Under the pieces are notes generated by a model that saw nothing but the letters and a program-made list of their open reading frames with translations, had not been told where the DNA came from and made no database searches. DNA of 64,000 nt from Acidobacteriota bacterium (GTDB lineage: Bacteria; Acidobacteriota; Thermoanaerobaculia; Multivoradales; Multivoraceae): contig JAPPFP010000017.1 of the NCBI GenBank assembly GCA_028877275.1, forward strand, positions 1 to 64,000, in the 5' to 3' direction. A program made the translations under genes and the position numbers. Below, in pieces: positions 57,720-61,994 of this stretch (positions within the stretch are counted from its first letter, which is position 1; each line of letters opens with the position of its first letter).

Positions 57720-57867
57720 GCCGACTCATGGGACGCGGGTCTTCCGAGAGTGCTTCAGTCCCGACCGCGTCGTCCTGGTGGGCCCCGACGCCCGGACACC
57801 GGACGCCGTGCCGCTCGCCGAGTTCCTGTCGCGGCGCGCCTCCGACTGGTTCGAGGACGAAAAATGA
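57720..57867 (+). pseudogene. C-terminal remnant of a gene once coupled to the NACHT gene
   Basis: TRVFRECFSPDRVVLVGPDARTPDAVPLAEFLSRRASDWFEDEK*; the stop overlaps the NACHT start (ATGA); no convincing coding sequence upstream. Confidence 0.4.
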
Positions 57868-60800
57868 CGATCGTGGACCTTGAACGCTCCTGCACCTCGA
57901 TCCCGAAGGACCGCGCACAAGCCGCCGAGGCAGTCTCAAGATCGCTTGCCGAGTACCGTCGTGCTCCCGCGTACGTCCTGCTCGGCGATCCTGGTGCCGG
58001 GAAGACGATATCGTTCAACCGAGAGCGAGAGCACACGCCGGGTGCCGCCGACGAGGTAATCGACGCCAGAGACTTCATTACCTTCGACCATCCCGAGTGG
58101 CACGGTCGGACTCTGTTCATCGATGGTCTGGACGAGATTCGGGCCGGCAGCGATGACGGCCGAACCGCCCTCGACAGGGTCCGCACCCGGCTCGGCGCGC
58201 TGGGAAAGCCGCGCTTCCGACTGTCTTGCAGAGAGGCGGACTGGTTGGGATCGAACGATTGGGCTCGGCTGCAAGCAGTCGCCCCGGGCGGCGAACTCAC
58301 GGTGCTGCGTCTTGACGCGTTGACCCTCGACGACGTGCAACGAATTGTCGGAGCGAGTCACCTCGTCCACGAGGCTGATCGGTTCATCGACGAGGCAAGA
58401 GACCGGGGTCTGAGGGAACTCCTCTTGAACCCCCAGACCCTGGCGCTCTTGATCGAGGCTGTCGGCGGCACCCAAGAATGGCCAAAGAGTCGCATCGAGA
58501 CCTTTGAACTCGCGTGTCGGCAACTCGCCCGGGAGAAGAACGAGGAGCACCGGTCCTCACGACGAGACGCTCGCGGCGAAGACGGCGTCCTCGAAGACGC
58601 GGGACGGATCTGCGCCTTGCTCCTACTGTCCGGGACTCCGGGCGTCAGCGCGCTTCCTTCCAGCGAAGAGGAACACGTCGACTACCCGCCGCTCCAGCGC
58701 CTAGACCCGACCCCCGAGGGAATGGCGGCGGGCGAATCCGAAGTCATCGCCCGCCGGAGAAGGCTAGCCTTGTCGAGCAGGCTGTTCCGGGGAGTCGGCG
58801 GGTCCAGACACACTACCGGGCCACGACTCGAACCGGTACATCGCCACATCGCTGAGTTCCTCGGCGGTCGTTATCTGGCTCGGCGAATCCGACAAGGGCT
58901 TCCCGTCGCCCGAGTCCTCGCCCTAGTGACGGCGAGCGACGGCGGCGTCGTGACGGCCCATCGCGGCTCCTGCGGCTGGCTGGCGTCACACTCCAAAGCG
59001 GCTCGACTGGAGCTGATCGACCGCGACCCGATTGGCGTCGGCCTCTACGGCGACATCGGTAGCTTCTCCACCGAAGAGAAGAGGGCGCTGCTGCTTGCAC
59101 TGCGGCGAAGTGGGCCGAAGTTGCAAGACCTTCACTGGCAAACCGTCCACGCCTTCGCGCCTTTGGCCGCCAAGGAAACGGAAGACCAGATTCGCCACTG
59201 GCTGACCGCTAACGCTCCAGGCGTCGACGACCAATACGCGACTCAGTTCCTGCTCATGCTACTGAGCGAGGCCGCTCCAATGACGAGGCTGGCGGAGCCG
59301 CTCCTCGCCATCCTCCGCGAACCCGCGTGGTGGCCTGGAGTCCGCTACTGGGCTCTTGACGCCTTCCTGCGCCACAGCCAAGGGGCGAGCAGCGGAATCG
59401 GCAAACTGAACGAACTGCTGACGGACGTCTACGACGGCAGACTCGCCGACTCCGAGAATCGGATCGCCGGGAAGGCCCTTGAGCGCCTCTATCCGAGCGT
59501 GGTCGGCCCAGCGGATGTATGGCGTTACCTTGCGCGGACGAACCGCTTCGGAACCCATTGGTTCTGGAGTCGTCTGGCCGAAGAGGAGCGATCATCCGAA
59601 GACGAGGTTCCGGTACTTCTGGACACCCTGCCTCAATACGTGGCCGACTTGCGCGCCGGGCCTCACAGCTTCCTTCTTGCCACGGTCGCCGCGAAACTCC
59701 TCGTTCGCGGCCTCGACGCCATCGGAACCAACCTGAGTCCGGCCCGACTCTACGACTGGCTCAGCACTCCAGTGGACTGCCGCAAGACCGCCTCCGGTCA
59801 TGTAGCCGAGGAGCAGCGGGCGAAGATCGCGAAATGGTTGGAACGGCACCCCGACGCCTACAAGCTCGCGTTTCGCGAGGGTCTGCGACGCGGGACCAAC
59901 GACAAGCCAAGCATCGTCGTCCACAAGATCCAGGAAAGACTCTACGAAGCCGCTCCGCCCGACGACTTCGGTTCATGGTGTCTGGACGAGGCCGAGACAC
60001 TCGCGGCTAGCCGGCCGGCTCTCGCCCGACAGCTGTTTGAAGAGGCCCGACGCCGACGGCGGGACGGCGAGGAAGGAATCTCCCGGGAGAGACTGGAAGA
60101 GTGCCTTAGACGTCATCCCTCCTGGCGGCCGCCGCCGGAAGACCCGAAGGCGGAGGAGGAACTACGAGAGGCAGAACGGGAATGGAAGGAGTCCCGGAGA
60201 GCCTTCGAGGAAGAACGCGAGCAACGGCGGAGACAGTGGCTCGACGCCGTTCGCCAGGAAGTGCCGACGCTCCTCGACAACCGGGGCGCCCCCTGGATAC
60301 TGCAGCGCATGGCTGAAGGTTGGTTCGAAAGAGGAGCCACAACAGTGACTTACGAAGAGAGGCTCGAAGGATCGCGAAGCGAGGAGATTCCCTTGCAGCG
60401 ATGGCTGGCCAAGGAGTTCGACCCGCACGAGGATCTGGCGGTCGCGGCGCTTCAAGGCCTGCGGGGCGTTCCGCACCGCCGCGACATGCCGGACGCCGAC
60501 GAGATTTTCAACCTCCGCTCCAAGTCCCGACGCCACCGTCTGTCAGTCCCCTTTCTGGTCGCTCTCCAAGACCGCCACCAGGAAGCAGCCATGTTCGTCG
60601 ACGAACTGACCGAACGGCAACAGCGCCAAGCTCTCGCGCTTTACTACTGCGTAGGGGCGGACTGGGGCCGACACCCCGCCTGGTACCGCCGGCTGGTCCA
60701 GCGGCGCCCCGAGGTGGCGGCCTCTGTCCTGCTGCCTTTCGCGCGAGCCGAAATCCGGGCCGGGCGCGATCACGTTGCCGGCCTCCGGATGCTCCACCAC

Positions 60801-61994
60801 GATCGAGATCATGCCGAACTCGCGCGTCTTGTGAGCCTGTCGCTCCTGCGCGGTTTTCCCGTTCGCGCTCCCGCACGACAGTTGAGCGACTTGAAGTATC
60901 TGCTCTGGGCGGCCTTGCGGCATGCCGACGAAGGAGAACTGCGCGCACTCATCGCAGAGAAGCTGGCGGCGCGGAGCCTGACGGTCGCCCAAAGATCCGT
61001 GTGGCTAGCGGCCGGCCTCATCACGAATCCGGAGACCTACGCCGTGCTTCTGGAGGAGTTCGTAGACGGAAACCAGCAGCGCGCAAGACAGCTCTCCGAC
61101 TTCCTCTGGTTCGAGTCTCTTCGTCCACCGGATGAACTGTCGCCTCGGGCCCTGGAGGCGTTGATTCGACAGTTGGGAAGAACGGGCGTCTTCGACAACC
61201 ACTTGCAAGACTCTCCCGATCCGTCCCCAGGACGGCTGGGCAGCCTAATCGAGCTTCTGGCGTCCGCCCCGGAACACAGGGTCGCCGGCGCGCTGCGGCG
61301 GCTCGTGAACGACGAATCCCTCTCCGAATGGAGGCCCAACCTGCTAGTCGCCGTCGAGCGGCATGCGGTCGTGAGTCGCGACGCATCGTACAAGCGCCCT
61401 GAACTCGCGGCTGTACGCGGAACGCTGGAAGACAGGGCGCCGGCCAACGCCCCGGATCTGGCCGCCCTCGCCCTCGACCGTCTCGACGAACTGAACCGTT
61501 CCGTCCGAACCGCTAACACGAACGTCTGGAGCCAATACTGGAACCAGGACAGCCACGGCAGGGCCACGGAACCCAAGCCCGAGAACGCCTGCCGGGACGC
61601 GCTGTCTTCCCAACTGCGATCACTGCTGCCGGACGAGGTGGACGTGCAACCCGAAGGTCACTACGCCGCCAATCGCCGGGCGGATATCCGCTTGGCCTGC
61701 TCCGACTTCCACGTCCCAGTCGAGATCAAGAAGAACTCCCACGCCGCTCTATGGCGCGCGGCCCGCGATCAACTGGTGGCCAAGTACACTCAGGATCAGG
61801 CAAGCAGCGGCTATGGCATCTTCCTGGTGCTCTGGTTCGGCGATCAGAACAAAGTACCGTTGGACGAGACGGAGAGTCGCCCCGTGAATCCTGATGAACT
61901 CAAGCGGCGACTGGAAGCCAGTCTCGCCAAGCAGCTTCCGCTCGAGCAGCAACACAAGATTGGTGTCCGGGTCATCGACGTCAGCAAGCCCTGA
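57864..61994 (+). CDS. NACHT/STAND-type NTPase with C-terminal PD-(D/E)XK-like nuclease domain (putative antiphage protein)
   Basis: 1377 aa from ATG 57864; Walker A LLGDPGAGKT, Walker B TLFIDGLDEI, FRLSCREADW, PVHRHIAEFLGGRYLARRI; C-terminal NRRADIRLACSDFHVPVEIKKNS...RDQLVAKY. Confidence 0.8.
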   Translation: MTIVDLERSCTSIPKDRAQAAEAVSRSLAEYRRAPAYVLLGDPGAGKTISFNREREHTPGAADEVIDARDFITFDHPEWHGRTLFIDGLDEIRAGSDDGRTALDRVRTRLGALGKPRFRLSCREADWLGSNDWARLQAVAPGGELTVLRLDALTLDDVQRIVGASHLVHEADRFIDEARDRGLRELLLNPQTLALLIEAVGGTQEWPKSRIETFELACRQLAREKNEEHRSSRRDARGEDGVLEDAGRICALLLLSGTPGVSALPSSEEEHVDYPPLQRLDPTPEGMAAGESEVIARRRRLALSSRLFRGVGGSRHTTGPRLEPVHRHIAEFLGGRYLARRIRQGLPVARVLALVTASDGGVVTAHRGSCGWLASHSKAARLELIDRDPIGVGLYGDIGSFSTEEKRALLLALRRSGPKLQDLHWQTVHAFAPLAAKETEDQIRHWLTANAPGVDDQYATQFLLMLLSEAAPMTRLAEPLLAILREPAWWPGVRYWALDAFLRHSQGASSGIGKLNELLTDVYDGRLADSENRIAGKALERLYPSVVGPADVWRYLARTNRFGTHWFWSRLAEEERSSEDEVPVLLDTLPQYVADLRAGPHSFLLATVAAKLLVRGLDAIGTNLSPARLYDWLSTPVDCRKTASGHVAEEQRAKIAKWLERHPDAYKLAFREGLRRGTNDKPSIVVHKIQERLYEAAPPDDFGSWCLDEAETLAASRPALARQLFEEARRRRRDGEEGISRERLEECLRRHPSWRPPPEDPKAEEELREAEREWKESRRAFEEEREQRRRQWLDAVRQEVPTLLDNRGAPWILQRMAEGWFERGATTVTYEERLEGSRSEEIPLQRWLAKEFDPHEDLAVAALQGLRGVPHRRDMPDADEIFNLRSKSRRHRLSVPFLVALQDRHQEAAMFVDELTERQQRQALALYYCVGADWGRHPAWYRRLVQRRPEVAASVLLPFARAEIRAGRDHVAGLRMLHHDRDHAELARLVSLSLLRGFPVRAPARQLSDLKYLLWAALRHADEGELRALIAEKLAARSLTVAQRSVWLAAGLITNPETYAVLLEEFVDGNQQRARQLSDFLWFESLRPPDELSPRALEALIRQLGRTGVFDNHLQDSPDPSPGRLGSLIELLASAPEHRVAGALRRLVNDESLSEWRPNLLVAVERHAVVSRDASYKRPELAAVRGTLEDRAPANAPDLAALALDRLDELNRSVRTANTNVWSQYWNQDSHGRATEPKPENACRDALSSQLRSLLPDEVDVQPEGHYAANRRADIRLACSDFHVPVEIKKNSHAALWRAARDQLVAKYTQDQASSGYGIFLVLWFGDQNKVPLDETESRPVNPDELKRRLEASLAKQLPLEQQHKIGVRVIDVSKP

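Follow-up and report, generated by a model that had tools for sequence, protein, structure and literature searches.

A stretch of 64,000 nucleotides from an Acidobacteriota bacterium (assembly GCA_028877275.1, positions 1 to 64,000 of contig JAPPFP010000017.1; hereafter the window) carries near its right end a gene whose product, with high probability, is a bacterial NLR of the EruA family that is normally paired or fused with a PDC-S01 protein, that has been orphaned in the window, and that is probably still usable alone. A previous reading made from the letters of this DNA (the sequence-only reading) had proposed a standalone system. "Standalone" turns out to describe a derived state: the relatives are two-gene or fused with an AAA_14-DUF4143 protein, and what is left of that partner in the window is a broken remnant at positions 57613-57867. 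Judged by sequence, the EruA-like gene appears to belong to a PDC-S01 plus EruA module, which is either two-gene or fused, and to have been orphaned secondarily. The gene and the recognizable parts of its product are as follows.

57864..61994, + strand: EruA-like NACHT / helical / PD-(D/E)XK protein of 1376 aa, identified by its open reading frame (ORF), NCBIfam and homologue search
57978..58007, + strand: Walker A, LLGDPGAGKT (residues 39-48, including K47); P43, G44, G46 and K47 invariant in 43 sequences
58110..58139, + strand: Walker B, TLFIDGLDEI (residues 83-92; D87, D90 and E91), invariant in 43 sequences
58839..58880, + strand: HRHIAEFLGGRYLA (residues 326-339), a motif of the NACHT/STAND winged-helix type; H326, R327 and E331 invariant, with a NOD2/NLRC4 model match
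58953..61403, + strand: all-helical solenoid, the presumed sensor (residues ~364-1180), from the AlphaFold model and its NLR and HEAT-type fold matches
61524..61991, + strand: putative C-terminal PD-(D/E)XK-like nuclease (residues ~1221-1376), with E1240, E1264, R1272, D1274, E1287, K1289, Q1303 and Y1308

The ORF starts with an ATG at 57864, and its stop codon ends at 61994 on the + strand. It is real and lies where the sequence-only reading had placed it, but its product has 1376 aa and not 1377, the stop codon having been counted before. The ORF did not arise by chance, because the protein has at least 1769 homologues at E <= 1e-3 and matches the NCBIfam (release 20) family NF058535, "NACHT domain-containing antiphage protein EruA", over its full length (positions 16-1318 of 1318, E 2e-239). 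Walker A, Walker B with its DGLDE, and the winged-helix HR..E of HRHIAEFLGGRYLA, all features of a NACHT/STAND module, are present, and their key residues do not vary across 43 aligned sequences with identities down to about 20%, in agreement with the NACHT-type NTPase proposed earlier. The charged segment EELREAEREWKESRRAFEEEREQRRR pointed out in that proposal is also present in the sequence; it was rejected as a conserved feature, since the homologue comparison showed no conservation there.

The last ~155 residues contain the motif E...E-x7-R-x-D-x12-E-x-K-x13-QL-x3-Y, in which E1240, E1264, R1272, D1274, E1287, K1289, Q1303, L1304 and Y1308 do not vary among 40 sequences (an alignment that excludes rows belonging to annotated plasmid records and has other loci in their place). 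The E...D...ExK core and the QxxxY-type helix of PD-(D/E)XK nucleases are both there, and the RADIRL, VEIKK and QLVAKY segments from which such a nuclease had been predicted are present as quoted. Modelling of the C-terminal part, which the sequence-only reading had proposed as a check, gave a mean predicted local distance difference test (pLDDT) score of 89.4 for the last 276 residues, and the top matches in the PDB are mostly PD-(D/E)XK proteins, namely OkrAI (probability 0.97), PspGI, Nt.BspD6I, Can2, Cdn1, McrBC, Hjc, SfsA and EndoMS. For the assignment of the C-terminal nuclease, the conservation of the motif weighs more than the fold search.

The AlphaFold model of residues 1-1150, built with 43 sequences, has a mean pLDDT of 83.6, and a Foldseek search of the PDB with this model returned NOD2 and NLRC4 at the top, followed by NAIP/NLRC4 assemblies (best E 2e-7), with HEAT-type folds also among the matches. 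The modelled fold thus indicates that the gene product is a bacterial relative of the animal NLR immune receptors. Residues 364-1150 consist of helices only in the model, so that the long middle region, read earlier as a putative sensor, is predicted to be an all-helical solenoid. Searching the PDB by sequence with the full protein gave no relevant match, Pfam had no model that reached its cut-off (only a sub-threshold AAA match), and the search of a phage collection yielded one partial match only.

Several of the closest homologues are proteins of ~1800 aa that start with AAA_14 and DUF4143 domains, and such fused forms account for 16 of the best 120 homologues. The N-terminus of one of them (P0013) matches the PADLOC model of PDC-S01 (PDLC04791) over positions 1-394 of 395 (E 5.6e-144). 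In unfused relatives a separate gene for the same AAA_14-DUF4143 protein immediately precedes EruA on the same strand, and by our own tally from the locus listing, 27 of 36 such pairs allow, through the choice of start codon, a stop/start overlap of exactly 4 bp, the others lying at about -11 to +5 bp. On a tree of 68 EruA rows, the window's branch comprises 48 rows, of which 34 have the partner upstream, six are fused, one is the window with its remnant, and seven are without the partner, including one (L074) whose locus is cut by a contig end. Taken together, 40 of the 48 rows in this branch (Shimodaira-Hasegawa-like approximate likelihood ratio test [SH-aLRT] support 98) have an upstream or fused partner, versus none of 19 in the other branch. 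At least two fusion events are required on the tree, and fused forms also occur in the window's own genus; one fusion, L005, comes from Thermoanaerobaculia. Partner-bearing rows span at least nine phyla, from Chloroflexota, Acidobacteriota, Nitrospinota, Thermodesulfobacteriota (Dadabacteria) and Latescibacterota to Gemmatimonadota, Rhodothermota, Bacteroidota, Actinomycetota and Pseudomonadota.

DUF4143 genes occur in many copies (4-20 per sampled member of the genus), so that their mere co-occurrence with EruA means little. Within the genus, however, the close partner subfamily (>70 bits) is confined to EruA loci, all other DUF4143 copies scoring at most 59 bits. Among 30 loci read in a sample of the phylum with a partner profile built from EruA-linked members, seven have EruA and 23 have PDC-S01 alone, and the EruA-linked partners form one clade, split by a branch with 100/99 support from the sampled solo PDC-S01 proteins, all of them from that one phylum. 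The distances among partners and among EruA proteins are correlated (Mantel r 0.79, a value reached in 0 of 5000 permutations). In a 15-row alignment the partner keeps Walker A, Walker B, E332, E358, D360, E373 and K375, which is consistent with an active ATPase plus a PD-(D/E)XK nuclease. PDC-S01 has been described as an ATPase plus PD-(D/E)XK protein that ranks fourth in frequency among defence entries across prokaryotes, validation being pending for most such candidates (PMC12988326).

One rival, which we consider unlikely, is a true standalone single-gene system for which the upstream ATPase is merely a frequent neighbour. The 19-row branch without the partner, which includes members of EruA proper from Citrobacter and from a plasmid of Bradyrhizobium, speaks for it, as do the intact EruA-like gene of the window and an EruA relative in Escherichia coli N17 (L177:5158-12646), near tRNA-Asn and integrase genes. 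This relative has no AAA_14-DUF4143 partner, although it is followed after about 12 bp by a gene of the LA2681 family with a HEPN domain, and an AAA ATPase gene lies upstream on the opposite strand; other lineages may therefore use other companions. Of 5426 E. coli genomes, 9 have DNA related to the N17 locus. Nevertheless, the partner accompanies EruA at most loci of the window's own branch, and the overlap of stop and start codons, the co-divergence and the repeated fusion disfavour an accidental neighbour. Since the partnerless branch has members of EruA proper (Citrobacter), we take it to suggest that EruA can act without the AAA_14-DUF4143 partner, and the orphan in the window may therefore still work.

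The loss of the partner in the window is recorded in the DNA just upstream of the EruA-like gene, where three features were recognized.

57544..57867, + strand: 107-aa ORF that includes a stump of the lost partner, from its C-terminal end; the first ~41 aa of the ORF bear no relation to the partner
57613..57867, + strand: stretch of DNA homologous to the gene of the intact partner, starting abruptly at ~57613
57864..57867, + strand: ATGA stop/start overlap between the partner stump and the EruA-like gene, seen also in most of the two-gene relatives that are intact

An intact AAA_14-DUF4143 gene, directly upstream or fused, is absent from the window, which has a frameshifted stump of 62 aa instead. 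The 107-aa ORF matches positions 342-394 of 395 of PDLC04791. It was also considered as a real small gene and rejected as such, having only one near-identical match and being, in sequence, the partner stump. The nearest locus with an intact partner, in genome G003, is the sister of the window copy on the tree (SH-aLRT 99), and comparison with it shows that the last ~62 residues of the partner are left (76% identity, E 8e-23). The remnant at 57613-57867 has suffered two 1-nt deletions and the replacement of a nuclease glutamate (IEVK to ITVK). Just before the breakpoint at ~57613 the DNA resembles a different locus, in another member of the genus (G012:C143), and a rearrangement at this point is therefore likely. 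A dispersed repeat lies at 57010-57206 of the window, with copies in G001:C58 (88% identical) and G000:C1 (84%).

It is conceivable, but in our view doubtful, that the EruA-like gene is itself a non-functional relic, in which decay is still to come after the loss of its partner. The partner is a pseudogene in the window, and the EruA gene is broken into pieces in three other members of the genus (G008, G012 and G015), two of which (G012 and G015) have a truncated partner as well, so that the locus evidently decays repeatedly in this genus. Against this, the 1376 codons of the window gene are uninterrupted, every catalytic residue and the 4-bp junction are retained, and the ratio of nonsynonymous to synonymous substitution rates (dN/dS) is 0.30 against G003, compared with 0.32 for a partner-bearing pair. 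The ratio is lowest in the nuclease region (0.17, with dS near saturation). The gene still looks to be under constraint.

In relatives, the sensor half of the gene seems to be exchangeable. The syntenic loci L172 (genome G013) and L173 (genome G011) share 96.7% DNA identity over more than 7.7 kb, from the upstream flank through the fused partner to the NACHT module, whereas past the NACHT module the identity of their EruA genes falls abruptly to roughly 50-70%, returning to 94-96% in the downstream flank. An exchange of the sensor/nuclease half by recombination would look like this. Misassembly is argued against because both flanks match, although the G011 contig ends about 700 bases later. 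A shorter drop of identity, inside the solenoid, was found between G016 and G011.

NACHT proteins are switches that oligomerise. We infer that in the EruA-like protein the helical solenoid would receive a signal derived from phage or infection, that this signal would open the NACHT ATPase switch and lead to oligomerisation, and that the oligomer would cluster the C-terminal nucleases, which could then cut DNA and abort the infection. The most economical role for the partner would be that of a second ATP-driven nuclease or a DNA-engaging subunit in the same complex. Some PD-(D/E)XK enzymes cut RNA, Can2 and Cdn1 (CRISPR ancillary nucleases) are among the fold matches, and relatives are located on conjugative plasmids, all of which would suit a nuclease acting on RNA or a role other than phage defence, such as plasmid exclusion or self-recognition. 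This alternative is improbable, given that the NCBI family name says antiphage and that bNACHT25, a NACHT protein with an N-terminal PD-(D/E)XK domain, degrades DNA on infection (PMC12169576). With some reserve, we lean towards the broader proposal that EruA-like NLRs and one clade of PDC-S01 constitute an undescribed dual-nuclease immune complex, two-gene and translationally coupled or fused, in at least nine phyla, with a sensor half that recombines between near-identical strains and a partner that is sometimes shed.

Some defence-type neighbours are indeed present, among them the methyltransferase/restriction pair and the ApeA-domain gene named in the sequence-only reading.

62389-63333, + strand: type II DNA methyltransferase (N6_N4_Mtase)
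63267-64088 (L133:15268-16089), + strand: gene with a match to the PADLOC model of a type II restriction enzyme, overlapping the methyltransferase gene and running past the end of the window
48859-50079, - strand: protein with an ApeA N-terminal domain (PF18862)
50394-51488, + strand: NucS_C / PDC-S11 nuclease-like protein

The ApeA-domain and NucS_C / PDC-S11 genes, both of defence type, lie less than 10 kb away from the EruA-like gene. When 107 ORFs neighbouring EruA loci were scanned with PADLOC, with no control set, scattered defence genes came to light. Other observations concern further EruA loci. In E. coli PE164 (L178:6060-8900) the EruA relative adjoins an IS3 element, and its match to the Citrobacter gene is limited to the last 72% of that gene, its NACHT part apparently having been lost. 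A member of the window's genus (L014, G004:C10) has, without a partner, an EruA of another lineage (35% identity), probably an independent acquisition. On a Paracoccus plasmid (L048:3914-9144) a relative from the partnerless branch has a different DUF4143 gene ~100 bp downstream, which suggests a second, independent pairing with DUF4143.

Several points weigh against an orphaned, still usable EruA-family receptor. The window protein scores 798 bits, below the equivalog cut-off of 1000 bits for EruA, and is thus classed by its score as an EruA-like relative and not as an EruA equivalog; the cut-off does not follow the tree, since members of both branches exceed it (L073 in one, L098 and L047 in the other). 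No match of the C-terminal model in the PDB reached E 1e-3, the best being 7.6e-3. The dN/dS values are not proof of present function, because they are averaged over the time before the partner was lost. The neighbours of EruA loci, surveyed with no control set, include many housekeeping genes besides defence genes. Finally, a literature search on EruA and HyoA did not find the primary paper naming EruA; its sole match for the name was an E. coli regulator also called EruA, which is unrelated and was set aside.

If a clade of PDC-S01 is tied to a named antiphage NLR, there is a direct route to testing the function of this common predicted defence gene. A C-terminal effector, a nuclease-like partner and a swapped sensor half together give an NLR layout comparable with the receptors of animals and plants. 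How such systems break down is illustrated by the orphaned copy in the window.

The sequence-only reading had left open whether the architecture was catalogued. It is already in NCBIfam as antiphage, since the protein matches EruA and, in its C-terminal region, HyoA; the correspondence to a characterised defence system holds at the level of the NCBI family name only. PADLOC, proposed earlier as a check, has no model, Avs included, that matches the EruA-like protein at E <= 1. The likeness to EruA (NF058535) lies in the NACHT module, the C-terminal nuclease, the similar length and the full-length match, whereas the AAA_14-DUF4143 partner is absent from the family label, even though a Thauera linaloolentis member above the cut-off (L073, 1028 bits) has the partner upstream. 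HyoA (NF058534) shares the C-terminal ~250 residues, which align to its positions 1185-1429, but the score of 130 bits is far below the cut-off of 1200, as for a sister family. The lost partner belongs, by its likeness, to PDC-S01 (PDLC04791), which is listed as a single-gene candidate, whereas the EruA-linked members form a clade apart from the sampled solo ones. In Avs (AVAST) proteins the effector is N-terminal, in contrast to the C-terminal effector of the window protein. bNACHT25/32 likewise combine a NACHT/STAND switch with a PD-(D/E)XK effector, but their nuclease is N-terminal, whereas that of the window protein is C-terminal, after the presumed sensor, and a second nuclease-like domain is found in the partner.

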